Source: Altibacter sp.
GTDB taxonomy: Bacteria > Bacteroidota > Bacteroidia > Flavobacteriales > Flavobacteriaceae
Assembly (NCBI RefSeq): GCF_019913785.1
Contig: NZ_JAIOHK010000055.1
Coordinates: forward strand, 62,001 to 126,000
Reading direction: 5' to 3'
Length of the DNA: 64,000 nucleotides
In this document: positions 17,866 through 60,688 of the stretch, piece by piece
Position numbering within the stretch: the stretch's first letter is position 1
Layout of the letters: each line of letters starts with the position of its first letter
Program-made: the position numbers and the translations under genes
The notes under the pieces: model-generated
What the model was told of the DNA's origin: nothing
Database searches by the model: none
What the model saw: only the letters and a program-made list of their open reading frames with translations

Positions 17866-20100
<2,235 letters not shown>

Positions 20101-36470: not shown

Positions 36471-36500
36471 TTGTGCTATATTGAATTTTTCATATTTTTG
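36471..36500 (+). promoter_or_regulatory. Promoter of the choice-of-anchor B / MbnP-MbnH gene block
   Basis: TTG (36471-36473), a spacer of exactly 19 nt, then TATTTTTG (36493-36500). This is a full match to the Bacteroidota primary sigma consensus and the best promoter in the window. Transcription would begin near 36507, giving a leader of about 115 nt before the ATG at 36622. Confidence 0.75.
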
Positions 36501-36524
36501 GCGTCCCAAAAGCTCTTTTTTTGA

Positions 36525-36563
36525 ATATAATTCATTAAAACCTGTGTTTTTGTTGAATTATAT
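36525..36563 (+). promoter_or_regulatory. Inverted repeat in the 5' leader of the anchor-B block
   Basis: ATATAATTCA (36525-36534) and its exact reverse complement TGAATTATAT (36554-36563) bracket 19 nt. The core ATAATTCA also occurs at 36461-36468 just before the -33 element, and a related TAATTCAA lies at 36571. It may be an operator or an RNA hairpin in the leader. Being AT-rich it could also arise by chance. Confidence 0.4.
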
Positions 36564-36621
36564 GTACTATTAATTCAATTTTATCGTTACCATCTTATTA
36601 TTGTAATTTAAAAACCAACAA

Positions 36622-38538
36622 ATGAAAAAACTATTACTCCCCATCTTAGCATTAGGCTTTGGTTTTGCGAATGCGCAAACCCCTTGTGCCGGAGGATCTG
36701 CAGGTCCTTACCCTTGCAGTGGTTATAACCTACAGTCCGAATTTTCTTTGGGCGATTTAAATGCCGGCGCCGGTAATGACTCTTGGGGTTGGACAGACCC
36801 TTCAAATGGTGATGAATACGCACTGGTAGGTTTAGACAACGGAACTGCCTTTATCGATATATCAGACCCAGTAAACCCGGTATACCTTGGAAAACTTCCA
36901 ACACATACAAACAGTTCTACCTGGAGAGATATTAAAGTGTATAACAACTATGCCTTTGTAGTTAGTGAGGCAAACAACCACGGGATGCAAGTATTCGATC
37001 TTACCCGATTGCGAAATGTAAACAATCCACCGATTACCTTTACCGAAGACGCTCATTACAACGGCTTTGGAAGTGCACATAACCTGGTGATCAATGAAGA
37101 TACGGGCTATGCTTATGGAGTTGGAACAGGATCGTTTAATGGCGGCCCTCACTTTGTAAATATTCAAAATCCTTTGAATCCAGTTGGCGAAGGGGGATAT
37201 TCCTTAGGCTCCTATAGCCATGATGCCCAAGTAGTAACCTACTGTGGTCCGGATGCCGATTATGCCGGAAGAGAAATCCTAATTGGCAGCAATGAGTCAC
37301 AAGTGGTGATTGTCGATATTACCGACAAAGGAAATCCGGTTGGAATTTCAAATATTAGTTATTCAAATGTGGCATATACCCACCAAGGATGGTTTACCGA
37401 AGATCAGACCTATTTTATTTTAGGAGATGAATTAGATGAACAAAATATTGGATTTAACACCCGTACGATCATTTTCGATTTCACCGATTTAGACAACCCG
37501 CAACACCATTTCGAATATACAGGTCCTACGCCTGCGATTGACCACAATGGTTATGTGAAGGGAACGAAGTACTATATGGCAAATTACAGAGCCGGGCTTC
37601 GAGTTATCGACATATCCGATATCGCGAATCAGAATATCTCTGAAGAAGGCTATTTTGACAGTTACCCAAATAATAACAATGCCAATTTTAGCGGCGCCTG
37701 GAGTGTATTCCCCTATTTTGCGAGTGGAAATATTGTTATCAGTGATATTAACAGAGGCTTCCTTTTAGTAAAAGCAGCAACAAGTGATCTAATAGAGCCT
37801 GTAGCAAATTGTCAAGATGTAACAATTATGTTAGATGCAAACGGAAATGCTTCGGTTACAGCGGCTCAAATTAACGATGGCTCTACAGACAACAGCGGAA
37901 CCGTTTATTTCCTGCTTTGTGATGACACCTTTGATTGTGGTGATTTAGGAGCTAATACGGTTCAGCTAGAGGTATATGACGACTTCGGAAACAGAGACTA
38001 TTGCACGGCAACAGTAACTGTTGTAGACGATATTGATCCTGCTATTACATGTCCTGCAGACTTTACGGTAGGATATGACTCCGGCAACCCTTATTATACA
38101 GTTCCTAATTATGACACCACCGGAGTGGTTACTGCCACCGACAATTGTGCGGCTGGACTAGTGATTACACAAAATCCTACTCCGGGAACTCAATTAACAG
38201 TGGGAACATACACTATTAGCTGTGAAGTAACAGATGGTTCAGGAAATACAAATACCTGTACCTTCGAGCTTACGGTAGAAGAGGTGCTTGGCACCAACGA
38301 TGTTAATTTGGAAAGTGGTTTGGCTATTTATCCAAATCCGACTTCAAATGTTATAACAATAAGTTCGAAGCATGTAAATCTTTCATCGGTTGCCATTATG
38401 GACGTATTAGGAAAGCAGGTATATACTGCCAATACGATCGATTCAGAAACTACAACTATTGACATTTCAGGATTTTCGAAGGGAATGTACTTTGTAAAGA
38501 TCAATAACAGTACTACGAAGAAGATCATTAAAAACTAA
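36622..38538 (+). CDS. T9SS-secreted choice-of-anchor B (LVIVD-repeat) protein with HYR-like insertion, copy 1
   Basis: A 638-residue surface or secreted protein. Signal peptide 1-19; mature N-terminus with a cysteine pair (C22, C32). Then the choice-of-anchor B/LVIVD beta-propeller core (about 50-390) with WGWTDP at 55, repeats of the type hFDhTDhDNPQ, and the invariant motifs SAHNLVI (151), HDAQVV (200), YTHQGWFTEDQ (252) and DHNGYV (307). Unlike the three copies downstream it has an extra 165-residue beta region (390-555) ending in an HYR-like domain (ITCPADFTV to CTFELTVEE), before the shared T9SS type A sorting domain (about 560-638). First gene behind the consensus promoter. Ligand unknown. 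Confidence 0.9.
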   Translation: MKKLLLPILALGFGFANAQTPCAGGSAGPYPCSGYNLQSEFSLGDLNAGAGNDSWGWTDPSNGDEYALVGLDNGTAFIDISDPVNPVYLGKLPTHTNSSTWRDIKVYNNYAFVVSEANNHGMQVFDLTRLRNVNNPPITFTEDAHYNGFGSAHNLVINEDTGYAYGVGTGSFNGGPHFVNIQNPLNPVGEGGYSLGSYSHDAQVVTYCGPDADYAGREILIGSNESQVVIVDITDKGNPVGISNISYSNVAYTHQGWFTEDQTYFILGDELDEQNIGFNTRTIIFDFTDLDNPQHHFEYTGPTPAIDHNGYVKGTKYYMANYRAGLRVIDISDIANQNISEEGYFDSYPNNNNANFSGAWSVFPYFASGNIVISDINRGFLLVKAATSDLIEPVANCQDVTIMLDANGNASVTAAQINDGSTDNSGTVYFLLCDDTFDCGDLGANTVQLEVYDDFGNRDYCTATVTVVDDIDPAITCPADFTVGYDSGNPYYTVPNYDTTGVVTATDNCAAGLVITQNPTPGTQLTVGTYTISCEVTDGSGNTNTCTFELTVEEVLGTNDVNLESGLAIYPNPTSNVITISSKHVNLSSVAIMDVLGKQVYTANTIDSETTTIDISGFSKGMYFVKINNSTTKKIIKN

Positions 38539-38572
38539 GCGCTTAGGCCTAGTACCAACGATTATAATTTTG

Positions 38573-38618
38573 AAAAAGCACTAACTTTTAACCTTTTGGT
38601 TATGGTTGGTGCTTTTTT
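38573..38618 (+). terminator. Hairpin terminator after copy 1
   Basis: Stem 38573-38585 with 38605-38617 (AGCACTAAC / GTTGGTGCT with one T-G wobble), an inner AACC/GGTT stem (38590-38593 and 38598-38601), and a T-run. Clearly a rho-independent type structure. Related hairpins follow copies 2 and 3. Confidence 0.75.
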
Positions 38619-38658
38619 ATTGGTAGTTTTAGCAAACTTTGATTAAAAACTCTTTTTG

Positions 38659-40071
38659 ATGAAAATATTTCTTCCGCTTTTTATAGGCCTTATATCGTTC
38701 ACAATCACCGCTCAAACACCCTGTGAAGGCGGGATGGCCGGACCCTTCGACTGTAATGGCTATGACCTGCTCTCCCAAATTCCCTTAGCAAGCATGAATT
38801 CTACCAGAGCAAATGATTCTTGGGGATGGACCGACCCTCAGGACGGAAAAGAGTACGCCATTATTTGCCTGATTGAAGGAACCGCATTCATTGACATTTC
38901 AGATCCTATCAATCCTGTCTATCTGGGAAAACTCCCAACTGAAAACAGTAGTAGTACCTGGAGGGATGCCAAGACTTATAACAACTACGCCTTTATTGTA
39001 AGCGAAGATGCAGGCCACGGTGTACAGATATTCGATCTAACCAGATTGCGGACTGTAAACAATCCGCCGGTTACCTTTACGGAAGATGCACATTATAGCG
39101 GTTTTGGAGCAGCACATAACATTGTTATCAATGAGGCTACGGGCTATGCTTATGGTGTTGGTACCGATGCCAATAGTGGCGGACCACACTTTATTAATAT
39201 TCAGAATCCCTTAGTCCCTGTAGGAGAAGGCGGCTATTCGGCCGAAGGCTATTGCCACGATGCACAGGTGGTTATCTACAACGGCCCGGATACCGATTAT
39301 ACAGGGCGTGAAATCCTATTCGGCAGTAACGAATCACAAATTGTTATTGTGGATGTAACCGATAAAGGAAGCCCACAGACCATATCCACCATTGCCTATG
39401 CCAATGTTGAATACACACACCAAGGGTGGCTAACCGAAGACCATCGGTATTTTCTTTTAGGTGACGAGGCCGATGAAATAAATCTGGGAATTGATACCCG
39501 AACTTTAATTTTCGATTTCAACGACCTTGATAATCCACAGTTTCATTTTGCCTATACCGGCCCAACAGCGGCAACCGACCACAATGGATATGTAAAGGGT
39601 GACAAGTTTTACCTTTCTAACAACGCAGCCGGGCTACGGGTAGTCAATATATCCGATCTGGCCAATCAAAACATGACCGAAGAAGGTTCATTTGATTCGT
39701 ATATTCCGGATAATAATGCAGGATATAATGGAGCTTGGAATGTGTACCCCTTTTTTGATAGCGGAAATATAGTAATTAGTGATCGAACCCAAGGGTTCCT
39801 TTTGGTAAGACCTTCGGCACTTGGAATTGAAGATCAAATGGTTAAAGATGATTTTGCCGTATATCCTAACCCGGCTTCAGAACAAATAACGATCAATTCA
39901 AAAGGGACTCCTATTTCCGCTATTTCAATTTCAGGTGTATTAGGGAACCTCCTTTTTTCAGAAAAAAATATAAATTCTGAAGTAAAAACCATCGATGTAT
40001 CTAGTTTCTCTAAAGGAATTTATTTTGTAAAAGTTAATGACAACACCGTTGCGAAAATCATCAAAAAGTAG
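38659..40071 (+). CDS. T9SS-secreted choice-of-anchor B (LVIVD-repeat) protein, copy 2
   Basis: A 470-residue paralogue of the preceding gene without the HYR-like insertion. Signal peptide ends ITAQ; the mature part opens TPCEGGMAGPFDCNGYDL. It keeps WGWTDP, AAHNIVI, HDAQVV, YTHQGWLTED and DHNGYV, then a short hinge and a T9SS type A sorting domain (AVYPNPASEQI to VAKIIKK). The frame opens one codon earlier at TTG; the ATG at 38659 is used. A terminator lies between copies 1 and 2, so transcription of copy 2 needs read-through or its own promoter. No clear -33/-7 pair is seen in the 120-nt spacer. Confidence 0.9.
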   Translation: MKIFLPLFIGLISFTITAQTPCEGGMAGPFDCNGYDLLSQIPLASMNSTRANDSWGWTDPQDGKEYAIICLIEGTAFIDISDPINPVYLGKLPTENSSSTWRDAKTYNNYAFIVSEDAGHGVQIFDLTRLRTVNNPPVTFTEDAHYSGFGAAHNIVINEATGYAYGVGTDANSGGPHFINIQNPLVPVGEGGYSAEGYCHDAQVVIYNGPDTDYTGREILFGSNESQIVIVDVTDKGSPQTISTIAYANVEYTHQGWLTEDHRYFLLGDEADEINLGIDTRTLIFDFNDLDNPQFHFAYTGPTAATDHNGYVKGDKFYLSNNAAGLRVVNISDLANQNMTEEGSFDSYIPDNNAGYNGAWNVYPFFDSGNIVISDRTQGFLLVRPSALGIEDQMVKDDFAVYPNPASEQITINSKGTPISAISISGVLGNLLFSEKNINSEVKTIDVSSFSKGIYFVKVNDNTVAKIIKK

Positions 40072-40101
40072 CGTGTTTATTGACCTAGTAAGTTAGTAGA
40101 G

Positions 40102-40142
40102 CATTAATTTTTAACGCGTTATGTTAGTCATAATGGTTTTTT
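40102..40142 (+). terminator. Hairpin after copy 2, with T-run
   Basis: CATTA / TAATG outer stem (40102-40106 with 40131-40135), the 10-bp palindrome TAACGCGTTA at 40112-40121 within it, and a run of T's after. The order TTTTTAAC...GTTA matches the hairpins at 38573 and 41647 and suggests common origin. Confidence 0.55.
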
Positions 40143-40182
40143 ATTATTAGCTTTACGCACCTTACAAAAAAATAAAATTTTG

Positions 40183-41598
40183 ATGAAAAAGTTACTTTCC
40201 CTTTTAATTGCAGCTACGAGTATGATTGCTATTGCCCAAACTCCATGTACAGGAGGATTTGCAGGAGGCTACCCATGCAGTGGTTACGATTTACAAGCGC
40301 ATATTAGTTTAGGCACCATGAATGCGTCGGGAGCCAATGATTCATGGGGTTGGACAGATCCCGATAACGGAGATGAATACGCCTTGGTAGGCCTAGAAGA
40401 TGGAACCGCATTCATTAAAATTTCAGACCCTGTCAATCCTATATATTTAGGCAAACTTCCTACACAAACCAGCAGCAGCACTTGGCGGGACATCAAAACA
40501 TATAATAATTATGCTTTTATCGTGAGTGAAGCGTCCAATCACGGGATACAAATTTTCGATTTAACCCGTTTGCGTTCGGTAGCCAATCCCCCTGTAACGT
40601 TCAACAACGATGCTCATTTTAATGGTTTTGGAGGCGCACACAATATTGTGATCAATGAAGATACCGGTTATGCTTACGGTGTTGGAGCTAACACCTATGG
40701 TGGAGGCACTCATTTTGTAAACATACAAGATCCATTGAATCCGGTGGATGCAGGAGGATTTGCATCTAATGGCTATACGCACGATGCACAAGTGGTAACA
40801 TATAACGGGCCCGATTCAGATTATACCGGTCATGAAATATTAATTAGTGCCAGTGGTAGCGAGCAAATTGTTTCTATTGTCGATGTGACTGATAAAAATA
40901 ATCCTATTAGTATATCTACCTTGTCGTATTCTAATGTAGGGTATACGCACCAAGGCTGGTTTACTGAAGATCAACGGTACTTTCTTTTAGGAGATGAGTT
41001 TGATGAATCGGATGTCGGGTTTAATACACGTACGATAATTTTCGACCTCAGCGATCTGGATAATCCGCAGCAAGACTTTGAATATTTCGGTCCTACTACT
41101 GCAATAGATCACAATGGATATGTTTTAGACGGCACCTATTATTTGGCAAATTATGCGGCTGGGTTTCGCAGAATCGACATTAGCGGTATCGCTAATGACA
41201 ATATGGTAGAAACGGGTTACTTCGACACCTATCCGGCAGATAATAACGCTAGTTACAATGGTGCATGGAATGTGTACCCTTATTTTAGTAATGGGAAAGT
41301 TATTATTACAGATCGCAGTGGCGGTTTCTTTCTTGTGAGTCCTTCGATACTTGCCATCAACGATTTATCTCAGGGGGAGTTTGCTGTTTATCCAAATCCC
41401 GCTTCGGAAATATTACAAATAGAATCCGCACATCAGTCGATTTCAAGTGTTCGGATTATTGACATGCTTGGAAAGGTGTTGTTTTCAGAATCAGCTATCA
41501 ATGTTACCAATAAGACCATTGATATTTCGTCCTTTTCTAAAGGCATGTATTTTGTAACGATCAACGACAACACTACCAAAAAGATTATTAAAAAATAG
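40183..41598 (+). CDS. T9SS-secreted choice-of-anchor B (LVIVD-repeat) protein, copy 3
   Basis: A 471-residue paralogue. Signal peptide ending AIAQ, mature start TPCTGGFAGGYPCSGYDL, then the LVIVD propeller with WGWTDP, GAHNIVI, HDAQVV, YTHQGWFTEDQ and DHNGYV, and a C-terminal T9SS type A sorting domain (AVYPNPASEIL to TKKIIKK). One extra residue in the ISASGSEQI segment distinguishes it from copies 1 and 2. The frame opens one codon earlier at TTG; the ATG at 40183 is used. Same orientation and spacing as the other copies, consistent with tandem duplication. Confidence 0.9.
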   Translation: MKKLLSLLIAATSMIAIAQTPCTGGFAGGYPCSGYDLQAHISLGTMNASGANDSWGWTDPDNGDEYALVGLEDGTAFIKISDPVNPIYLGKLPTQTSSSTWRDIKTYNNYAFIVSEASNHGIQIFDLTRLRSVANPPVTFNNDAHFNGFGGAHNIVINEDTGYAYGVGANTYGGGTHFVNIQDPLNPVDAGGFASNGYTHDAQVVTYNGPDSDYTGHEILISASGSEQIVSIVDVTDKNNPISISTLSYSNVGYTHQGWFTEDQRYFLLGDEFDESDVGFNTRTIIFDLSDLDNPQQDFEYFGPTTAIDHNGYVLDGTYYLANYAAGFRRIDISGIANDNMVETGYFDTYPADNNASYNGAWNVYPYFSNGKVIITDRSGGFFLVSPSILAINDLSQGEFAVYPNPASEILQIESAHQSISSVRIIDMLGKVLFSESAINVTNKTIDISSFSKGMYFVTINDNTTKKIIKK

Positions 41599-41646
41599 TC
41601 GAGAAGAGTACTTTATTAAAAATTTAACGGCTTGTTCACTACGCAG

Positions 41647-41680
41647 CACTAAGTTTTAACCTTTTACGTTAGGCTTAGTG
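41647..41680 (+). repeat. Hairpin after copy 3, related to the two upstream
   Basis: CACTAAG / CTTAGTG stem (41647-41653 with 41674-41680) enclosing TTTTAACC and ACGTTAG, so the inner TAAC/GTTA pairing is kept. No T-run follows, so if it began as a terminator it is probably weak now and would let transcription run into copy 4. Confidence 0.5.
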
Positions 41681-41721
41681 TACTGATATAATTATTTTTA
41701 CATCTAAATAAAATCAAACTA

Positions 41722-43131
41722 ATGAAAAAATTACTACCCCTATTAATAAGCATGGTAACCGCAGTCGCCATTAGTCAAACTCCATGTGTTGGAGGAATTG
41801 CAGCCGGATATCCCTGCAGTGGATATGATTTACAAACACACATTGTTTCTGGAATAATGGGTGCTTCGGGAGCAAACGACTCTTGGGGCTGGACCGATCC
41901 CGATGATGGCACCGAATACGCGATTATATGTTTAAACAATGGAACCGCTTTTTTTGATATTTCAACACCTACCAATCCAACCTATCTTGGAAAATTAAAT
42001 ACCTCTACTGGATCGAGTTCTTGGAGAGATGTAAAAGTGTATAATAATTATGCTTTTATTGTTAGTGATGTAAACGGAAATCACGGTATGCAGATTTTCG
42101 ATTTAACCAAATTAAGAAATGTGGCAAATCCACCCGCTACCTTCACCGAAGATCAACATTACAGTGGTTTTGGAAGTAGTCACAATATTGTGATTAATGA
42201 AGAAACTGGTTATGCCTATGCAGTAGGAAACAACACCTTTAGTGGAGGCCCTCATTTCATTAATATTCAAGACCCGCTTAATCCGGTAGCTGCAGGAGGA
42301 TATGCAGGTGAAGGATATACACACGACGCACAAGTTATTATTTATGATGGCCCCGATACCGAGCACGTGGGAAAAGAAATATTTTTTGGCAGCAACGAAA
42401 CACATGTGGCTATAGTGGATGTAACCAACAAGGCCAATCCACAACTTATATCAACAATAGTGTATCCTTCAGTTGGCTATACACATCAAGGTTGGTTGAC
42501 CGATGATCGCAATTACTTTTTGTTAGGGGATGAAGGAGACGAATTCGACTTTGGATTTAATACCCGAACCGTGATTTTTGATGTATCCGATTTAGATAAT
42601 CCTTCTTTTTCCTTCGAATATTATGGAACAACTCCTTCTGTCGATCACAACGGATATGTAATTGGAGACACTTTTTATCTAGCCAATTACTCCGCAGGAC
42701 TGCGTGTTATGGACATAAGTGACCTTGCTAATCAAAATATGTCGGAATCAGGATTTTTTGATTCATATCCAAGTAATAACAATGCAAATTACAACGGTAG
42801 CTGGAATGTATACCCGTTTTTTGCAAGTGGAAATATTGTAATCTCCGGATCGAATGGATTTACGCTTGTTAAAGATGCGAGCTTAGCAGTTAACGATATT
42901 GCAGCCAACGAATTTTTAATGGTTCCTAACCCAGCCGATAATATGGTGACCATTACTTCAAAAGAAAATAAAATTTCGCAAGTAACTATTTTTAATCTTT
43001 TGGGACAACAAGTCTTAGATAGGTCTTTTGAAGATAGTATTTCCGAAAGTATCGATGTTTCGAACTTGACCGCCGGAATGTACTTGGTAAAAATTAACGA
43101 TAACACTACAAGAAGATTGGTAGTGAATTAA
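41722..43131 (+). CDS. T9SS-secreted choice-of-anchor B (LVIVD-repeat) protein, copy 4
   Basis: A 469-residue paralogue, the last of four. Signal peptide ending AISQ, mature start TPCVGGIAAGYPCSGYDL, then the propeller with WGWTDP, SSHNIVI, HDAQVI, YTHQGWLTDD and DHNGYV. The T9SS type A sorting domain is the most divergent (MVPNPADNMV to TTRRLVVN). It lies 14 nt before the propeller lipoprotein gene with no terminator, so it is likely co-transcribed with the three lipoprotein genes that follow. Its position ties the whole family to the MbnP/MbnH pair. Confidence 0.9.
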   Translation: MKKLLPLLISMVTAVAISQTPCVGGIAAGYPCSGYDLQTHIVSGIMGASGANDSWGWTDPDDGTEYAIICLNNGTAFFDISTPTNPTYLGKLNTSTGSSSWRDVKVYNNYAFIVSDVNGNHGMQIFDLTKLRNVANPPATFTEDQHYSGFGSSHNIVINEETGYAYAVGNNTFSGGPHFINIQDPLNPVAAGGYAGEGYTHDAQVIIYDGPDTEHVGKEIFFGSNETHVAIVDVTNKANPQLISTIVYPSVGYTHQGWLTDDRNYFLLGDEGDEFDFGFNTRTVIFDVSDLDNPSFSFEYYGTTPSVDHNGYVIGDTFYLANYSAGLRVMDISDLANQNMSESGFFDSYPSNNNANYNGSWNVYPFFASGNIVISGSNGFTLVKDASLAVNDIAANEFLMVPNPADNMVTITSKENKISQVTIFNLLGQQVLDRSFEDSISESIDVSNLTAGMYLVKINDNTTRRLVVN

Positions 43132-43145
43132 CCCCCAAATAACCT

Positions 43146-44543
43146 ATGCTATTGAAAAAAACGAAAAATTTAAATCTTATTGGAGTGTTTATGATCTTAG
43201 GAGTGCTGTTTTCCTGTGGAAAGGATGACGGTGGGACTCCCAACGATGATGACCCCCCAACTGGATTCCTTGGCGAATTAGAATATGTTAAAACCTTTGG
43301 AGGAAGCGGAGAAGATGAAGCATCAGCAATTCTTCAAACTGCCGATGGATCCTATATTGTTTTTGGTTCTACACGTAGTAATGATGGAGACATCACAGAT
43401 AAGGCCGGAATTGATGCAGATTATTGGTTGCTGAAACTTTCTCCCGAAGGGGAATTAGTTTGGAGTAAAACCTACGGGGGTACTGAAGATGAAAAAGGAT
43501 CTCGAATCTCTAAGACCAACGATGGAGGATATCTTCTATCGGGCTATAGTGCCAGTAACGATGGCGATGTATCGGGGAATGAAGGTTTTCATGATTACTG
43601 GATTGTTAAAGTGAATAGCGAGGGTGCTATTCAATGGGATCTCAATTTTGGTTTTCCCGGAAGCGACCAAGCCTATGATGCATTTCAAACTTCCGATGGC
43701 GGTTATTTTCTAACCGGATTCTTCGATGTAAGTGCATGCGGTGCCAATCTTTGCCCCGGGAGCGACCTCGTAGATGGTGAAGATCCTATCGAATCCAAGA
43801 GTGGACTGCACGGCGTAGGAGAATACTGGGCCATAAAGCTGAATGCCAACGGAACAAAGCAGTGGAGACGTTATTTTGGAGGCTCTAACAACGACAGAAG
43901 TTATGATGCCTTAGAAACCTCCGATGGCGGGTTTTTGATGGTAGGTGCTTCCGAAAGTGCCGATTTTGATATTACCGATGACAAAGGAAGCTATGACTAT
44001 TGGGCAGTGCGCTTAACCGAAAACGGCGACCTGCTGTGGACCAAATCTTTTGGTGGTTCCGAAATTGATGTAGGATATGCTGTTACCAAATCGAATGATG
44101 GAAATTATATCTTAGTAGGTGATTCTCGAAGTGAAGACAAAGATGTTAGCAATCCATTGGGTAATGCCGATGCGTGGGCGGTAAAGTTTAACGATAGCGG
44201 AAATCTAATTTGGCAAAAAAGCTTTGGTGGCGATCAATTTGAGTCGGGTAGAAGTATTCTTCCAATCTCAAATGGCGAATATTTGGTTGCCGGCTCCACC
44301 CGAAGTGCCAACGGTGATATTACCGTAAATCGCGGTCAAAATGATGCCTGGATCTATAAGATTAGCGAGCAAGGTGAGCTTAAGTTTCAAATAACAGCCG
44401 GTGGTTCGGGTCTCGATTTTGCAACCGCGGCTATTGAAACTCCAGACAATAAAATTGTTGCTGTTGGAAATACCGAGAGCAATGATTTTGATATTCCATC
44501 CAATCGAGGAATTAAGGATTTATTACTAATAAAGATCAAATAA
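43146..44543 (+). CDS. Beta-propeller lipoprotein (delta-60-like repeats)
   Basis: A 465-residue lipoprotein: signal peptide with lipobox LFSC (Cys24), an acidic Asp/Pro linker, then seven to eight repeats of about 50-60 residues. Each repeat has the form FGGS-x(n)-A-x(n)-T-x-DGGY-hh-G-x-S-x-S-x-D-x-D, then W-hhKh-x-x-G-x-h-x-W. These resemble delta-60/PQQ-like propeller blades that are common in Bacteroidota lipoproteins. An insertion with two cysteines (ACGANLCPG) lies at about 198-206. It should sit on the outer membrane. It is 14 nt after copy 4 and 23 nt before the MbnP-like gene. Function unknown; a scaffold or binding role in the block is inferred. Confidence 0.85.
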   Translation: MLLKKTKNLNLIGVFMILGVLFSCGKDDGGTPNDDDPPTGFLGELEYVKTFGGSGEDEASAILQTADGSYIVFGSTRSNDGDITDKAGIDADYWLLKLSPEGELVWSKTYGGTEDEKGSRISKTNDGGYLLSGYSASNDGDVSGNEGFHDYWIVKVNSEGAIQWDLNFGFPGSDQAYDAFQTSDGGYFLTGFFDVSACGANLCPGSDLVDGEDPIESKSGLHGVGEYWAIKLNANGTKQWRRYFGGSNNDRSYDALETSDGGFLMVGASESADFDITDDKGSYDYWAVRLTENGDLLWTKSFGGSEIDVGYAVTKSNDGNYILVGDSRSEDKDVSNPLGNADAWAVKFNDSGNLIWQKSFGGDQFESGRSILPISNGEYLVAGSTRSANGDITVNRGQNDAWIYKISEQGELKFQITAGGSGLDFATAAIETPDNKIVAVGNTESNDFDIPSNRGIKDLLLIKIK

Positions 44544-44566
44544 TTAAAAACCTAACTTATTATTAA

Positions 44567-45340
44567 ATGAAAAAAATTGCCCTATTTGCAATGATTGCCA
44601 TGGTGGCCATGAGTTGCAATAACGATGACGATAATAGCAGCACACCTGTAAATGTTGATTTTCTATTTACGCATAACTGGGATGGCAGTGCCATCGAAAA
44701 CTCAGATTTTGAAGTAATTCAATACACCAATGCACATGGAGAGGAATTGAGTCTTTCAAAATTGGTATACTTGATTTCTGATATTACATTTACCAATGCG
44801 AATGGTGATGTGTATGATGCAGGAGACTATAACTTGGTAAATGTGAGAGAAGAAACTAACTTGATGTTCACCCCCAATATACAGGTTCCACCCGGAGACT
44901 ATACCGTTTCCTTTACCTTTGGTTTTGATGATGAAGATAATATTGATGGTGTCTATCAGGATTTAAATTCAGCCGACGGTGGTTGGAATGTTCCCATGAT
45001 GCTTGGTGGTGGTTATCACTATATGCGTATGGAAGGTAAGTTCATCGACAATACAGCTGCCGAGGTAGGGTATGCATATCACGCCATTAGAGCGGCCGAT
45101 GCGAGCACAACGCCTATAACACTACAAGACACTTCTTTCGAAGTAAACCTTGGAACAGTGACCATAGCAAATAACACCGAAATTGAAGTAAAAATGAACG
45201 TAGCCGAATGGTATGACAATCCTCACGAATGGGATTTAAATATACTTCACACTGTTTTAATGCCGAACTTCGATGCTCAAGTAATGATGTCGGAAAATGG
45301 TGCTACCGTTTTCAGTAAAGGTGCCGTGACACAAAACTAA
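44567..45340 (+). CDS. MbnP-like lipoprotein
   Basis: A 257-residue lipoprotein (lipobox AMSC, Cys17, then an Asp/Asn/Ser linker) with the fold and motifs of the MbnP family: VNVDFLFTHNWDG at 28-40, SKLVYLISDITFTNANGD at 64-81, PPGDYTVSFTFGFDDEDNIDG near 108, GGWNVPMMLGGGYHYMRMEGKF at 138-159 and EWDLNILHTVLMPNFDAQVM near 221. Tryptophans are W38, W140, W215 and W222, histidines include H36, H151, H172 and H228. In methanotrophs MbnP is the partner of the di-heme MbnH, which lies 14 nt downstream here. A copper-related function is inferred from that pairing. Confidence 0.85.
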   Translation: MKKIALFAMIAMVAMSCNNDDDNSSTPVNVDFLFTHNWDGSAIENSDFEVIQYTNAHGEELSLSKLVYLISDITFTNANGDVYDAGDYNLVNVREETNLMFTPNIQVPPGDYTVSFTFGFDDEDNIDGVYQDLNSADGGWNVPMMLGGGYHYMRMEGKFIDNTAAEVGYAYHAIRAADASTTPITLQDTSFEVNLGTVTIANNTEIEVKMNVAEWYDNPHEWDLNILHTVLMPNFDAQVMMSENGATVFSKGAVTQN

Positions 45341-45354
45341 AATGATTTTATAAC

Positions 45355-46425
45355 ATGCGCTTAACTATAATAGCAATACTCGTATCTCTAACGATCATCT
45401 CCTGTAGTACAGGAGGTGATGGTGGAGACCCATATGAGGCAACTCCAAGTCCGCTAGTGATTCCGCAGTTGTTTCAAGACAAATTGATCGATCCGGTCAT
45501 ACCGGCAGACAATCCACAAACGGTGGAAGGAATTGCCTTGGGAAGAAAACTCTTTTTCGATCCTATCCTTTCTGGAGACGGAACACAATCCTGTTCCACC
45601 TGCCACAACCCCGAAAACGCATTCACAGATCCAAGACAATTTAGCGTGGGCATTGATGGAAGTATTGGTACCCGTAATTCAATGCCTATTTTTAACGTTG
45701 CTTGGAATTTTAATGAACTTTTCTTTTGGGATGGACGTGCAACCAGCGTCGAGGATCAGGCCTTCGGCCCCGTAGTTAATCCTGTAGAGATGAAAAATAC
45801 TTGGCCGAATGCCGTTGCTAGTTTGCAGGCCGATTCGGAATATCCCGATCTCTTTTTAGCAGCATTTGGAACCTCAACAATTGATTCTACGATGGTGACT
45901 AAGGCGATTGCACAATTTGAACGCACACTTATATCTGCCAATTCAAAATTTGATAAATATACTCGTGGAGAGGTTGAATTAACCCCTTCCGAATTAAACG
46001 GCCTGAATGTATTTTTGGATGAAGGCAGGGGTGATTGCTTCCACTGTCACGGGAATCCTAACAGTCCGCTTTGGACAGATAATATCTTTCATAACAACGG
46101 TTTAGATGCTAGTTTTACAGATCGAGGGCGAGGTATGGTAACCGGTGACCCCAGAGAATTTGGACAATTTAAGTCACCTTCGCTTCGGAATTTAGCGTAC
46201 ACTGCACCGTACATGCATGATGGGAGATTTGCTACGCTGGAAGAAGTGATCAATCACTATAGCGAAGGACTGGTTTATTCAGAAACCATCGATCCCTTAA
46301 TGAAAACTGTATCTGCAGGAGGTGTTCATCTAACCGAACAAGACAAAGCAGATCTCAAGGCATTTTTGCTGAGCCTCTCAGATCCTTCGTTTATTTCAAA
46401 TCCAGATTTTCAAGATCCCAATTAA
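45355..46425 (+). CDS. Di-heme cytochrome c peroxidase family lipoprotein (MbnH/MauG/CcpA type)
   Basis: A 356-residue lipoprotein (lipobox TIISC, Cys17) with two heme c sites, CSTCH at 80-84 and CFHCH at 228-232, and the family segments ALGRKLFFDPILSGDG (61-76), FFWDGRA (123-129) and SPSLRNLAYTAPYMHDG (274-290). These define the bacterial di-heme peroxidase superfamily. Its position directly after the MbnP-like gene identifies it as an MbnH-type enzyme, which would oxidise tryptophan on MbnP rather than act as a plain peroxidase. Which of the two applies cannot be settled from sequence by eye. Last gene of the block; 173 nt separate it from sufA. Confidence 0.88.
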   Translation: MRLTIIAILVSLTIISCSTGGDGGDPYEATPSPLVIPQLFQDKLIDPVIPADNPQTVEGIALGRKLFFDPILSGDGTQSCSTCHNPENAFTDPRQFSVGIDGSIGTRNSMPIFNVAWNFNELFFWDGRATSVEDQAFGPVVNPVEMKNTWPNAVASLQADSEYPDLFLAAFGTSTIDSTMVTKAIAQFERTLISANSKFDKYTRGEVELTPSELNGLNVFLDEGRGDCFHCHGNPNSPLWTDNIFHNNGLDASFTDRGRGMVTGDPREFGQFKSPSLRNLAYTAPYMHDGRFATLEEVINHYSEGLVYSETIDPLMKTVSAGGVHLTEQDKADLKAFLLSLSDPSFISNPDFQDPN

Positions 46426-46598: not shown

Positions 46599-46928
46599 AT
46601 GATTAAAGTTAGTGACACTGCAAAAACCAGAATTTCGCAGCTTATGTCTGAAGAAGGCTATAATGTAGCCAATGACTTTGTACGCGTTGGTGTGAGAAGT
46701 GGTGGGTGTTCCGGGCTGTCTTACGAACTTACTTTCGACAAGACCTTGGGAGATACCGATAAGCTTTTCGAAGAAAATCAGGTTAAAATTGTGGTAGACA
46801 AAAAAAGCTTTTTGTACCTCGTAGGTACTACCTTGGAATACAGTGGCGGACTTAACGGAAAGGGATTTGTATTTAACAATCCCAATGCCAACAGAACCTG
46901 TGGTTGCGGTGAAAGTTTTTCACTTTAA
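46599..46928 (+). CDS. sufA: A-type Fe-S cluster assembly protein (SufA/IscA/HesB)
   Basis: A 109-residue A-type carrier that passes Fe-S clusters to target proteins. The three cluster ligands C37 (GGCSGLSY), C101 and C103 (TCGCGESF) are present, in the usual spacing. First gene of the suf operon, with a -7 box just upstream and sufB 19 nt downstream. Confidence 0.95.
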   Translation: MIKVSDTAKTRISQLMSEEGYNVANDFVRVGVRSGGCSGLSYELTFDKTLGDTDKLFEENQVKIVVDKKSFLYLVGTTLEYSGGLNGKGFVFNNPNANRTCGCGESFSL

Positions 46929-46947
46929 TAATTGCTGAAAAAGAAAG

Positions 46948-48396
46948 ATGGGTAAGTTTACAGAAGACGATTTAAAGAAAGAACTCGAAACCAAAGAGTA
47001 CGAATACGGATTTTATACCGATATAGAGTCCGACACATTTCCTGTTGGTTTAAACGAAGGTATTGTTCGGGCCATTTCAGAAAAGAAAGAAGAACCCGAA
47101 TGGATGACTACTTGGCGTTTGGAAGCCTTTCGCTATTGGCAAGAAATGGTGGAACCCGAATGGGCCAATGTGCACTATGAAAAACCAAATTTCCAAAATA
47201 TCTCCTACTATTCGGCGCCCAATAAAAAGCCCAAATACAACAGTATAGACGAAGTAGATCCGGAACTCTTAGACACCTTCAAAAGATTGGGTATTTCGTT
47301 AGATGAACAGAAAAAATTAGCCGGAGTAGCGGTAGATATTGTGATGGATTCGGTTTCGGTGGCCACTACTTTTAAGAAAACCTTGGCCAAAAAAGGAATT
47401 ATTTTCTGCTCTATTTCCGAAGCCATAAAAGAACATCCAGAACTTGTTAAAAAATATATTGGAAGTGTCGTCCCACAACGCGATAATTTCTATGCCGCCT
47501 TGAACAGTGCGGTGTTTAGTGATGGATCCTTTTGTTATATCCCGAAAGGGGTGCGGTGCCCAATGGAATTATCCACTTATTTCCGAATCAATCAAGCCGG
47601 TACCGGACAATTCGAGCGCACCCTAGTTATTGCCGATGAGGGAAGTTATGTGAGCTATTTAGAAGGTTGTACAGCGCCTAGCCGAGATGAAAACCAATTG
47701 CATGCCGCTGTGGTCGAACTCATTGCATTGGACAATGCCGAAATTAAGTATTCTACGGTCCAGAACTGGTATCCCGGCGGAAAAGATGGAAAAGGAGGAG
47801 TTTACAATTTTGTAACCAAGCGAGGTATCTGTGAAGCCAATGCGAAGATATCTTGGACACAGGTTGAAACAGGAAGCGCTGTTACCTGGAAATACCCGAG
47901 CTGTATACTAAAAGGAGATAATTCAATTGGTGAATTTTATTCGATCGCTGTAACAAACAATTACCAACAAGCCGATACCGGAACGAAGATGATTCATATT
48001 GGTAAAAACACGAAGAGCACTATCATTTCCAAAGGTATTTCGGCCGGAAAATCACAGAACAGCTACCGCGGTTTGGTAAAAATTAACCCCAAAGCCGATA
48101 ATGCTCGTAATTTTTCACAATGCGATTCGTTATTAATGGGAAATGACTGTGGCGCGCATACTTTTCCGTATATAGAAGTAAAAAATAAGACGGCACAGGT
48201 AGAACATGAGGCTACCACCAGCAAAATTGGTGAAGATCAAATATTTTATTGCAATCAGCGAGGTATTAATACCGAAAAAGCTATTGCGCTGATTGTAAAT
48301 GGATTTAGTAAAGAAGTGTTAAACAAGCTGCCCATGGAATTTGCCGTGGAAGCACAAAAACTATTAGAAATAAGCCTTGAAGGCTCAGTTGGTTAA
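46948..48396 (+). CDS. sufB: Fe-S cluster assembly scaffold subunit SufB
   Basis: Core scaffold of the SufBCD complex. The 482-residue product is full length and shows the family segments [59 protein letters not shown] and, near the end, [20 protein letters not shown]. It begins 19 nt after sufA. SufC does not follow directly: a lipoprotein gene (48415-48822) lies between them, which is unusual for this operon outside the Flavobacteriia. Confidence 0.97.
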
Positions 48397-57393: not shown

Positions 57394-59688
57394 ATGAACA
57401 ATATATTCCCACCTAATTTTCTTCCTAAAATACGTGTCTCACGGTTATTTTTTAGAAGTAAGAAAGGAATGCTGTTCGCTATCATTTTTTTAGCCACAGC
57501 CTCATTTTCGGCACACGCACAAGGACCCGGTTCTCTTTTCGTAGATGCTGGTCCGGATGTCACCATAGATTGTGATGGAAATAACGGATGTACCGATATA
57601 ACCGCCGATTTCTTAACGACTTTCGAAACTGCCAGTTCCATCTATGTGGTCGAATCGATTCCATATAACCCTCCATTTCCATTTAGTGGTTTGGCAAATC
57701 CGCTAAATCCGAATATCGATGATGCTTGGTCTGGAGTTGACACCCTGCCTTTTGATTTTTGTTATTTTGAAAATTTAGAGCAAGAATTTCAAGTGGGTTC
57801 CAACGGTGTAATACGTTTCGATGTTGATCCTGGAGATACCACGAATGGGTGGTCCTTTAGCGAAAACCTACCCAACAATTCAAACCCAACGCTGGCCGAG
57901 GCCAACGTTTTTACACCTGGTCATGATATAGATCCTTCGGCTTCGAATTCCGAAGAAATTGGTTACGAAGTCCTTGGAACCTATCCAAATCGTGTACTAG
58001 TAGTGGCCTATTTCGAAGTACCTATGTTCTCTGGTACTTGCAATGCCCTGTTGGCAACACAGATGGTTGTTTTTTATGAATTTTCGAATGTGATCGAGGT
58101 ATATATACAAGATAAGCCATCTTGCCCATCTTGGAATGACGGGAATGCAGTAATTGGAATTCAGAATGATGATGGTAATATCGCTTATGTACCACCTGGA
58201 AGAAATACTTCAGATTCACCTTGGACTACCAACAATGAAGCCTGGCGTTTCACTCCAGCGGGTAATGAGACCTATGTTTTTGAATGGTTGGATGCTAGTG
58301 GAACCGTCATAGGAACAACGCCTACTGTAAATGTATGCCCTGATGGAAGTGAGGCGTATACAGCGCGCGTAACCTATACCAACGCTTGTAATGGGGATAC
58401 CGTTGTTTTAGAGGATGAGGTAATTGTTACCGCCGTAGCCACTTATTCAGTTGATCTTGGCGGAGACCAACAATTATGTGATGTAGCAACCTATGAAATA
58501 ACTGCAGTCATTGAGGGCGCAGATCCAACCAATGCTACGTACTTATGGAGTACCGGTGAAACAACGCCTTCCATAATTGTATCACAATCTGACGTTTATA
58601 GTGTTGAAGTCGATATTGAAGATTGTGTTGTAAATCAAAGTGTTCAAATTGAATTGGAGAACACTCCGGCCATAGAATTAGGAAACAATATTGAAACTTG
58701 TTTCGATGAGATTATCCTACTGGATGCTTCTCCTTCAAATTATGACCCGGCCTTGGCCACCTACAAGTGGAGTTTAAACGGAACAGTACTTCCTTCTGAA
58801 ACAAATCCAACACTTATCGTTTCAACGCCCGGCACCTACAGCGTGGTAGTTACGGTTGGTTTCTGTGAAGCCAATGATAGTATCGATGTGCTTCCGGGAA
58901 ATGACATCCTTATTTCGTTGGGAGATGATATCGAGACCTGCTTCGATGAAATATTAATTCTGGATGCAAGTCCTTCAAATTACGACCCGGCTTCGGCTAC
59001 TTATCAATGGAGCTTAAACGGAACAGTATTGCCTTCAGAAACAAATCCAACACTGGTTGTTACAGAAGGAGGCACCTACAGTGTGGTAGTGACTATTGGA
59101 GTTTGTGTTGCTGAAGATTCTGTAGTGGTTTCCGGAAGAGATGATCTTGTTGTTGTATTGGGTGATGATTTTAGAACCTGTGCTAACGAACTACAAACCA
59201 TTGTAGCGGCAACCGACGAAACGGATGTTGTCTATCAGTGGCTTCTAAACGGAGAGGTACTTCCAAATGAAACCGGAACCAGCATCGATATTACATTTGA
59301 CCCGGGTACCATAGGGACACAAACATTTACAGTGATCATCTCTGTAGGTGACTGTACCGGAGAAGATTCGATCGATGTGCGTTTATACGATGTAGGACAA
59401 TGTGTTATTTCGGAAGGGCTTTCGCCGAACGCTGATGGTATGAACGATTGTTTAGATCTCGAATTTGTCGCAGACCGAAGTGGTTCGTTCTCCATAGAAG
59501 TATTCAATAGATATGGTACTTCGGTGTTCTCGCAGAACAACTATGTGAATGGCTGGTGCGGGCAGGATAACGATGCCGCCGAATTGCCCACAGGAACCTA
59601 TTTCTATGTGATGAAATTTGAAAATTCGGATACCGAATTTGGTTCGGTTAAAACCGGATGGATCTATTTGAATAGAGACGCAAATTAA
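57394..59688 (+). CDS. Gliding-motility-type secreted protein with CHU_C (T9SS type B) C-terminus
   Basis: A 764-residue exported protein. A long signal region (residues 1-42, hydrophobic core 26-36, ending AHAQ); an N-terminal globular domain (50-290); then four Ig/PKD-like modules, the last three on an exact 80-residue period (427, 507, 587). Two of these are near identical over 40 residues. The C-terminus (about 672-764) is the gliding-motility CHU_C domain used as a T9SS type B sorting signal: EGLSPNADGMND, FNRYGTSVF, LPTGTYFYVM and TGWIYLNRD. It leads a module with a PorP/SprF protein and a PorE-like protein, a typical SprB-like adhesin arrangement. Confidence 0.9.
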   Translation: MNNIFPPNFLPKIRVSRLFFRSKKGMLFAIIFLATASFSAHAQGPGSLFVDAGPDVTIDCDGNNGCTDITADFLTTFETASSIYVVESIPYNPPFPFSGLANPLNPNIDDAWSGVDTLPFDFCYFENLEQEFQVGSNGVIRFDVDPGDTTNGWSFSENLPNNSNPTLAEANVFTPGHDIDPSASNSEEIGYEVLGTYPNRVLVVAYFEVPMFSGTCNALLATQMVVFYEFSNVIEVYIQDKPSCPSWNDGNAVIGIQNDDGNIAYVPPGRNTSDSPWTTNNEAWRFTPAGNETYVFEWLDASGTVIGTTPTVNVCPDGSEAYTARVTYTNACNGDTVVLEDEVIVTAVATYSVDLGGDQQLCDVATYEITAVIEGADPTNATYLWSTGETTPSIIVSQSDVYSVEVDIEDCVVNQSVQIELENTPAIELGNNIETCFDEIILLDASPSNYDPALATYKWSLNGTVLPSETNPTLIVSTPGTYSVVVTVGFCEANDSIDVLPGNDILISLGDDIETCFDEILILDASPSNYDPASATYQWSLNGTVLPSETNPTLVVTEGGTYSVVVTIGVCVAEDSVVVSGRDDLVVVLGDDFRTCANELQTIVAATDETDVVYQWLLNGEVLPNETGTSIDITFDPGTIGTQTFTVIISVGDCTGEDSIDVRLYDVGQCVISEGLSPNADGMNDCLDLEFVADRSGSFSIEVFNRYGTSVFSQNNYVNGWCGQDNDAAELPTGTYFYVMKFENSDTEFGSVKTGWIYLNRDAN
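58672..59391 (+). repeat. Three 240-bp tandem repeats within the CHU_C gene
   Basis: Repeats at 58672-58911, 58912-59151 and 59152-59391, each encoding an 80-residue Ig-like module opening with hxLG(N/D)(N/D)-x-x-TC. Repeats 1 and 2 are near identical in protein (ETCFDEI, LDASPSNYDPA, WSLNGTVLPSETNPTL) but carry silent differences in DNA. The third is diverged. A fourth more distant module precedes them (58450-58671). Confidence 0.85.
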
Positions 59689-59749
59689 TCGAGATCCAAT
59701 GAAATTCATGGATTTACAAAAAACAGACTAATATAAACAACCAATCATA

Positions 59750-60664
59750 ATGAAAAAATTATCACTAATCGTACTTGTGGTTAGCCTATTGTGTGTCGAT
59801 TTCGCCTCGGCACAACAGGACCCACAGTATACACAATATATGTACAATATGAATGTGGTGAACCCGGCGTATGCGGGTAATAAAGAAGTGCTTTCAATTA
59901 CCGCATTATATCGTAAACAATGGTCCGGCTTCGACGGAGCTCCCGAGACAATCACCTTTTCGGCGCATTCTCCTATAAGCGACAAAATAGGCTTGGGACT
60001 TTCCGCTATTAAAGATGAACTTGGTCCCGTTAGTGAAACCAATGTATATGCCGATTTCTCTTATACCTTACAGGTAAGTGAGAGCTTAAAATTAGCATTT
60101 GGTTTAAAAGCAGGAGCTACCTTCCACGATGTTGGACTTATCGATTTGGAGTTACAAGACCCCAACGATCCCTTCTTTTCACAGGATATTAATAATACCT
60201 ATCCCAATGTGGGAGCCGGGGCCTTCTTTTATGGAGATAAGTTTTATATCGGACTTTCGGTGCCTAACTTTTTAAATTCGGTGCATCTGGATGAAAACGG
60301 GATAAAATATGGAAGTGAGACCAATCACTATTTTGCGACAGCTGGTTATGTCTTTGATGTTTCAGAAAATATGAAATTAAAGCCGTCGGTAATGGTGAAG
60401 TCGGCCTTCGACGCTCCGCTCTCCATCGACGGAAACTTGAATGCACTATTTTATGAAAAATTTGAAATTGGCGCATCCTATCGTTTGGATGATTCCTTTA
60501 GCGGACTTGTAGGGTTTCAGGTAACGCCTAACATTCGTATTGGGTATGCCTATGACCGAGTTGTTTCAGACATCAACGTAGTGAGCGATGCCTCACACGA
60601 AGTTATTTTAACCTTCGATCTTGGCTTTGCGAAGCGTGCATTGCGTTCGCCCAGATACTTCTAA
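59750..60664 (+). CDS. PorP/SprF family type IX secretion membrane protein
   Basis: A 304-residue outer-membrane protein of the PorP/SprF family, which helps T9SS surface proteins cross or anchor. Signal peptide 1-22 (ending ASAQ), the hallmark QDPQYTQYMYNMNVVNPAYAG at 23-42 region, then beta strands and FGLKAG-, VGAGAFFYG- and RIGYAYD-type segments, ending in RSPRYF. It follows the CHU_C gene and precedes the PorE-like gene by 24 nt, the usual partner set in gliding flavobacteria. Confidence 0.94.
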   Translation: MKKLSLIVLVVSLLCVDFASAQQDPQYTQYMYNMNVVNPAYAGNKEVLSITALYRKQWSGFDGAPETITFSAHSPISDKIGLGLSAIKDELGPVSETNVYADFSYTLQVSESLKLAFGLKAGATFHDVGLIDLELQDPNDPFFSQDINNTYPNVGAGAFFYGDKFYIGLSVPNFLNSVHLDENGIKYGSETNHYFATAGYVFDVSENMKLKPSVMVKSAFDAPLSIDGNLNALFYEKFEIGASYRLDDSFSGLVGFQVTPNIRIGYAYDRVVSDINVVSDASHEVILTFDLGFAKRALRSPRYF

Positions 60665-60688
60665 CCACCTAATCTAATTTCATTAAAA

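Follow-up and report, generated by a model that had tools for sequence, protein, structure and literature searches.

In a 64 kb window of Altibacter sp. (the whole stretch of DNA that was analysed; genome of 2.98 Mb, 85 contigs, 98.8% complete), four genes for choice-of-anchor B propellers (AB) are followed by genes for a propeller-type lipoprotein (prop), an MbnP-like lipoprotein and a diheme MbnH-family protein, the last two together being called MbnPH. MbnPH is tied to prop and not to the AB array, and the genes constitute a family-wide operon of surface-type proteins. In the explanation that we favour, and to which we give about an even chance, AB-prop-MbnP-MbnH is the core of a surface operon in which MbnPH would be an optional module linked to prop, an alternative to a prop that carries a GHDH motif of its own. 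No description of this operon was found in the open-licence papers searched, and we know of no assigned client of MbnPH beyond methanobactin producers. Because the sequence of prop varies in exact step with MbnPH presence, the question of what MbnPH serves becomes directly testable.

Genes of the operon

The genes, as placed by the list of open reading frames (ORFs) and by profile matches, are as follows (T9SS, type IX secretion system).

36622-38538, + strand: AB1, choice-of-anchor B propeller with HYR and T9SS tail
38659-40071, + strand: AB2, choice-of-anchor B propeller with T9SS tail
40183-41598, + strand: AB3, choice-of-anchor B propeller with T9SS tail
41722-43131, + strand: AB4, choice-of-anchor B propeller with T9SS tail, heading a compact four-gene unit
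43146-44543, + strand: prop, delta-60/SBBP-type propeller lipoprotein, version without GHDH (S173/Q175, R328)
44567-45340, + strand: MbnP-like lipoprotein, type 1 (WNVP...LGGGYH; H151, H172, W222)
45355-46425, + strand: MbnH-family diheme lipoprotein with two CxxCH
46599-48396, + strand: IscA-type and SufB genes, the start of the next unit, outside the system

For AB2 and AB3 the ORF lister gave TTG starts, and the starts listed here are the in-frame ATG one codon later. The gaps are 14 nucleotides (nt) between AB4 and prop, 23 nt between prop and MbnP and 14 nt between MbnP and MbnH, so that the first-pass annotation was right in placing the seven genes on one strand with 14-23 nt between the last four.

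All four AB match TIGR04312 (choice_anch_B) at 519-569 bits, for a cut-off of 100, and each has a T9SS type A tail over cut-off (TIGR04183, PF18962); with the T9SS translocon SprA present in the genome, they qualify as T9SS type A cargo. Over the domain, AB2 and AB3 are each 70% and AB4 66% identical to AB1. The MbnP-like protein belongs to PF20243 (98.2 bits; gathering cut-off 27). The diheme protein is a member of the CCP_MauG superfamily (PF03150, 208 bits, over cut-off, and two CxxCH), and its match to TIGR04039 (MbnH), 264.7 bits, lies below the curated cut-off of 362.85. The delta-60 and SBBP repeat models both match prop below their cut-offs, and among solved sequences CylK and designed propellers come closest to it. 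The genome holds one MbnP and gave no match to the methanobactin protein MbnB at E 0.001, in agreement with the earlier description of an MbnP/MbnH pair without a methanobactin gene.

A fifth AB is encoded away from the array (G000:C78:16928-18073; L111:7884-11111; 1076 aa, T9SS tail). Its neighbours are several secreted proteins with a QVGIGT/QIGINT-like start, and the loci L112 and L113 are similar by ORF sizes.

Conservation in the family

We surveyed 149 genomes drawn from the family of the window. MbnP was over cut-off in 71 and AB in 76 of them (79 with weaker matches); both were present in 50 genomes, MbnP only in 21, AB only in 26 and neither in 52 (Fisher p 8e-6). Where both are present, an AB gene has an MbnP gene downstream of it, on its own strand and 1.4-2.5 kb away, in 48 of 50 genomes; in the other two (G075, G079) MbnP lies elsewhere.

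Eighty loci were mapped, of which 46 were linked, 20 AB-only and 14 others. The linked loci have the order ThiL-like gene (opposite strand), AB (1 to 5 copies), prop, MbnP, MbnH, IscA and SufB, the far ends being sometimes cut or different; the names ThiL-like and SufB are those that we presume for these genes, the latter from its sequence. Counted from longest-ORF starts, the median gaps are 9 nt for AB-prop and 3 nt for prop-MbnP (n=46 each), 6 nt for MbnP-MbnH (n=56, including ten loci apart from AB) and 139 nt for MbnH-IscA (n=43). At loci without MbnPH they are 0 nt for AB-prop (n=19) and 137 nt for prop-IscA (n=18). The 46 loci with MbnPH have one AB (33 loci), two (9), three (3) or five (1), and all 20 loci without it have one; in one of these 20 (L100) no prop ORF was found. 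Since more than one AB occurs in only 13 of the 46 MbnPH loci, the tandem array stands outside the core.

Scanning with an alignment of AB yielded, from the best 80 matches, 79 loci whose organisms are named, and close kin among the matches listed are Pukyongia, Aureisphaera, Aureitalea and Altibacter. AB, prop, MbnP and MbnH stand in a row in 46 of the 79, AB-prop in 20, several of which have an MbnP or MbnH that is cut by the locus end, ORF-interrupted or unrecognised, and neither arrangement in 13, some on short contigs. Variants include one or more genes between MbnP and MbnH in Kordia (L164, L199) and AB without prop in a few loci, e.g. Psychroflexus curvus L166 and Gillisia L202.

The three proteins that follow AB look like lipoproteins. 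By simple rules, lipobox-like starts were found in 122 of 131 prop, 106 of 108 MbnP and 108 of 114 MbnH-matching ORFs, and at least two Asp or Glu after the Cys in 89 of 131, 99 of 108 and 87 of 114, respectively. PMC5080379 gives C-X-K-(D/E)2 as a surface-export signal of lipoproteins, which the prop start CGKDDG fits; prop, MbnP and MbnH may be exposed on the cell surface.

Two versions of the propeller lipoprotein

To relate prop to MbnPH we used 101 loci having the ThiL-like gene, AB, prop and SufB; gene-lacking loci, those with a prop of 400 aa or less and those with an unclear MbnPH state were left out. In 64 loci MbnPH is of type 1 and in 11 of type 2 (see below), and 26 have none. Three columns of prop separate the states fully: H173 and H175, both in a GHDHxY motif, occur only without MbnPH and R328 only with it. 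Thus, GHDH (H173 and H175) is present in 26/26 loci without MbnPH and in 0/75 with it. The same held out of sample. Among 13 further loci, nine had a prop ORF, and GHDH was found in 7/7 of those without MbnPH and 0/2 of those with it; the four without a prop ORF were not counted. One of these seven, G075, has an MbnP elsewhere in its genome, and therefore the rule holds per locus and not per genome.

Other histidines of prop follow the same direction. H149 is present in 26/26 loci without MbnPH and in 14/76 with it (the window, which has H149, being counted), and the mean number of His per prop is 7.2 without MbnPH versus 2.7-2.8 with it, while H222 is invariant in both versions. No prop mixing the two versions occurs among the 101 loci, R328 being a feature of the C half and GHDH one of the N half. 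That a locus has GHDH or MbnPH, and never both among those examined, suggests from the sequences two interchangeable ways to a metal site.

We propose that in Flavobacteriaceae-type bacteria AB, prop, MbnP and MbnH form an operon core acting at the cell surface, in which MbnP-MbnH would be an optional module belonging to prop, and prop the client of MbnPH. One version of prop, with no MbnPH genes downstream, would rely on its own His (H149, GHDHxY and the H222 common to both versions); the other, that of the window, is without GHDH, and the MbnP and MbnH genes come after it. MbnH, as a surface diheme enzyme, would oxidise MbnP and so mature a metal site, probably of copper. The matured MbnP, presumably in a complex, would lend this prop the metal site that is integral to the GHDH version. 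AB would be a separate, strictly conserved seven-bladed propeller, here amplified to four T9SS-secreted copies. A more specific form, in which a prop with built-in GHDH and a prop borrowing its metal from MbnP are swapped as a single cassette at a fixed genomic slot and the Trp oxidised by MbnH has moved from the WxW motif of MbnP to W215/W222, is put forward tentatively, as something that may well turn out otherwise.

MbnP subfamilies and the diheme protein

The window MbnP has, in its predicted structure, the MbnP fold. The model (predicted local distance difference test, pLDDT, 91) had the six chains of 7L6G as its only Foldseek hits under E 0.001, and aligned to this Methylosinus MbnP with Z 16.2 and a root-mean-square deviation (rmsd) of 3.6 over 218 residues, the next entry having Z 7.8. 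Neither a single-sequence nor a profile search with MbnP found a relative in the PDB; the fold search did.

The 106 different MbnP fall into type 1, to which the window protein belongs (80), and type 2 (26; 16 in the slot and 10 elsewhere). NCBIfam names TIGR04052 MbnP_like_WxW, 'MbnP family copper-binding protein', and we take it that a Trp of WxW is converted to kynurenine in MbnP, which fits this name. WxW is kept in 26/26 type 2 proteins. At the same columns of the 80 type 1 proteins, the first residue is W in 63 and F in 17, and the second V in 65 and W in 15; the window MbnP reads W140-N-V142 and has no WxW. The model TIGR04052 gave no match to it at E up to 1, and matched three type 2 proteins at 4e-16 to 6e-14, these also being below the cut-off of 140. 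With WxW degraded in type 1, the known copper chemistry cannot simply be transferred. H172 is invariant in all 106 proteins; invariant in type 1 only are H151 and W222 (80/80), and W215 is kept in 76/80.

The best solved match of MbnH is the diheme enzyme 6e1c (E 2.8e-58), deposited as 'Di-heme enzyme', which we take to be MbnH itself. In the diheme alignment C80/C83/H84 are present in 57/58 and C228/C231/H232 in 58/58 sequences. The cut-off of TIGR04039 was reached by MbnH in 0/149 family genomes. As a separate observation, the canonical WxW-type MbnPH in L119, L122 and L116 are near small proteins with a CDGKC(Y/F)LA motif.

These sequences can also be read as a surface peroxidase or electron sink, MbnH maturing no copper site and type 1 MbnP being a plain binding partner. 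The changes of the first Trp to Phe (17/80) and of the second to Val (65/80), the lack of a TIGR04052 match even at E 1 and the unreached TIGR04039 cut-off in the family all agree with it. Yet type 1 has gained invariants of its own (H151, W222 and, nearly, W215) beside the universal H172, so that the site looks moved and not lost, and MbnP and MbnH remain paired in most loci. We consider this account a possible one, although improbable on balance.

Phylogenetic history of the proposed module

Quick trees were built from the 101 loci, identical props being entered once. The fewest changes of the three-state MbnPH character were 11 on the ThiL-like tree, 11 on the AB tree (10 for the domain alone), 10 on SufB and 4 on prop. 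For simple presence or absence, prop needs one change, as do the trees of its N half and of its C half, versus 6 for AB, 7 for SufB and 8 for the ThiL-like gene. The prop tree unites the MbnPH-less loci (98% in the Shimodaira-Hasegawa-like approximate likelihood ratio test, SH-aLRT), whereas approximately unbiased (AU) tests rejected them as one clade for SufB (p 0.0057), the ThiL-like gene (p 2.4e-5) and the AB domain (p 0.018). One change on the prop tree against 6-8 on the neighbours indicates that prop and MbnPH share one history and the neighbours on both sides have another.

Individual loci illustrate the conflict. On the SufB tree, Pseudozobellia L192 belongs to a clade (98) of 24 rows, 22 of them MbnPH-less, but on the prop tree it falls among type 1 loci, in a clade (99) of 44 rows. 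The SufB tree places Aquimarina acroporae L162 with its congeners (89), and the prop tree places it in the MbnPH-less clade (99); this locus has AB-prop without MbnPH, and the six other loci examined in the genus have a type 2 MbnPH.

As for the two MbnPH types, a first quick tree suggested that they had been recruited independently into the slot. This idea was dropped as unsupported, because uniting all AB-linked MbnH gave a better tree (AU p 0.82). A larger prop tree requires 4 changes for the type 2 loci, of which the starred branches force only one, and we therefore make no claim on the origin of type 2.

A shared history could also come from exchange of prop and MbnPH as mere neighbours, with no functional tie between them. 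Their adjacency, with a median gap of 3 nt, and the fact that the prop versions make up one split would be expected from such hitchhiking. On the other hand, AB, at a median of 9 nt from prop, and SufB do not travel along with prop-MbnPH, and no prop mixes the versions, R328 in one half and GHDH in the other both separating all 101 loci. Hitchhiking is for these reasons rather unlikely, and we retain the reading of MbnPH as a module serving prop.

The choice-of-anchor B propeller

The predicted AB domain (pLDDT 92; predicted template modelling score, pTM, 0.91) has seven blades by our reading of its strand list. Foldseek ranks the propeller phosphotriesterase 5hrm of Sphingobium TCM1 first (E 8.3e-12), and VIA aligns the two with Z 30.1 and rmsd 3.2 over 330 residues, WD40 domains tying in Z. 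Identity to the nearest solved propellers is 15-18%, and the AB profile, run against the PDB, reached 5hrm at no better than E 0.23. H133, H180, H234 and H288 stand at or next to the starts of predicted inner strands of successive blades; this is a usual place for a central site, and 5hrm has two metals bound in such a position.

When 24 AB columns of putative function were checked, 22 showed no variation across the 101 loci and two had one exception each. Among them, WGW and the four His are kept in 101/101, including the 26 beside a prop without MbnPH, and no AB column separates the MbnPH states completely (best 0.84, versus 1.0 for the three prop columns). AB is probably an enzyme or receptor at the cell surface that depends on metal and can act together with both prop versions. 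Two genomes from other families of the phylum (G349, G384) have 11 AB copies over cut-off each, mostly open frames of ~800 aa, and none of these is within 12 kb of an MbnP.

It had been suggested in the first-pass annotation that the amplified AB propellers may serve MbnP/MbnH as substrate, partner or scaffold. AB does head the unit in the examined loci, although these were chosen by AB; it has the invariant WGW and other Trp, and more than one AB occurs in 13/46 loci with MbnPH versus 0/20 without. But AB-prop is often found without MbnPH (26/101), the AB columns are invariant regardless, the best of them separates the states less well than the prop columns, and the AB phylogeny departs from MbnPH by 6 changes, MbnPH tracking prop instead. 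AB is therefore unlikely to be the special substrate of MbnPH, and the suggestion as a whole is improbable. An old gene order beside the SUF operon without functional meaning, in line with the ThiL-like gene upstream and IscA-SufB downstream, which are also conserved in most mapped loci, is very improbable and, as the whole explanation, was rejected for the conflict of both flanks with the prop-MbnPH history, the operon-like gaps being moreover confined to the four genes, which stay adjacent in five loci with no IscA/SufB next door (L136, L140, Dokdonia L158, Psychroflexus L169 and L181).

Strength of the proposed function

Several points weigh against prop as the client of MbnPH. The compared loci were chosen by AB, so that the survey covers prop genes beside an AB. 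The independent pairs of loci on well supported branches all agree, but there are 2 by SufB and 4 by the ThiL-like gene (7 and 8, respectively, on all branches), too few for significance. Since the two prop versions are one split on the prop tree, the association of GHDH with MbnPH absence may be a single old event that was later transferred, and prop and MbnPH, being neighbours, could hitchhike. Val in place of the second Trp in most type 1 proteins weakens the step of Trp oxidation. No copper gene was recognised beside the operon, the neighbours being only partly searched. Finally, in a survey of 345 genomes of the phylum (AB at E 1e-30, MbnP at E 1e-8), AB and MbnP were linked, i.e. within 12 kb on one strand, in 0/21 genomes outside the family having both; 18 of these were re-searched for all AB and the other three had one AB each. 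The nearest pairs were ~16 kb apart on opposite strands (G384) and ~23 kb apart (G373). Thus, the conserved neighbourhood that had been anticipated exists within the family and does not extend beyond it: AB-MbnP linkage is a feature of the Flavobacteriaceae-type family.

Promoter, hairpins and other features of the window

Three candidate signals for transcription were located around the AB genes.

36471-36500, + strand: flavobacterial-type promoter TTG-N19-TATTTTTG, where the first-pass annotation had the system begin
38571-38619, + strand: terminator-like hairpin with U tract between AB1 and AB2 (-25.5 kcal/mol, z -7.8)
41646-41681, + strand: weaker hairpin without U tract between AB3 and AB4 (-13 kcal/mol, z -2.4)

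The promoter is the sole full forward-strand match in 64 kb to TTG-N18-20-TANNTTTG, which we take to be the flavobacterial consensus; among 500 mononucleotide-shuffled versions of the intergenic region, 2.2% reached its best score. A sigma-70 scan gave 28 sites versus a mean of 35 in shuffles. For the hairpin at 38571-38619, 0/200 shuffles were as good. Thus, the strong promoter proposed earlier is matched, whereas a single promoter or transcript for all seven genes is doubtful because of the strong hairpin between AB1 and AB2, and AB1 may be a unit of its own. Hairpins followed by a T run, at -8 kcal/mol or better, were found in 15/68 gaps between AB copies, so the hairpin is no conserved part of the system. 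The hairpins after AB1 and AB3 have the same 5' arm GCACTAA, perhaps copied with the duplicated genes, and a hairpin resembling them follows the first AB in L072.

Elsewhere in the window, another peroxidase, a heme peroxidase (PF00141) of 743 aa and catalase-peroxidase size, is encoded at 17866-20097 (- strand), and 57394-62578 holds a T9SS-type adhesin cluster of a CHU_C-tailed PKD-like protein, PorP/SprF and an OmpA protein with PD40 repeats.

Comparison with known systems

As a confident TIGR04312 member, the window AB belongs to the choice-of-anchor B/LVIVD propellers. Its nearest solved propeller is the Sphingobium TCM1 phosphotriesterase 5hrm, yet WD40 domains tie with it in Z.

The canonical WxW-type MbnPH of the same family of bacteria (L114, L116-L124) consist of the same two protein families. 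They differ from the window in keeping WxW (10/10) and in having no AB or prop in the ten mapped loci; one neighbour in L119 is a TonB-dependent receptor. In PMC9426467, MbnPH-like genes are described in operons headed by the copper-responsive cruR, with TonB-dependent transporters and copper chaperones.

The methanotroph MbnP/MbnH (7L6G, Methylosinus) resembles the present pair as an MbnP-fold protein adjacent to a diheme enzyme. Here, however, no MbnB was found, WxW is mostly lost, and the pair is placed behind a propeller lipoprotein, as lipoproteins with acidic residues after the Cys. PMC3621798 reports MbnPH pairs well beyond methanobactin producers.

MopE/SACCP and CorA/CorB are likewise gene pairs of a surface protein and a diheme cytochrome peroxidase. 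According to PMC3912023 and PMC3621798, the copper site of MopE/CorA consists of two His and a kynurenine, and copper represses MopE and CorA together with their diheme partners.

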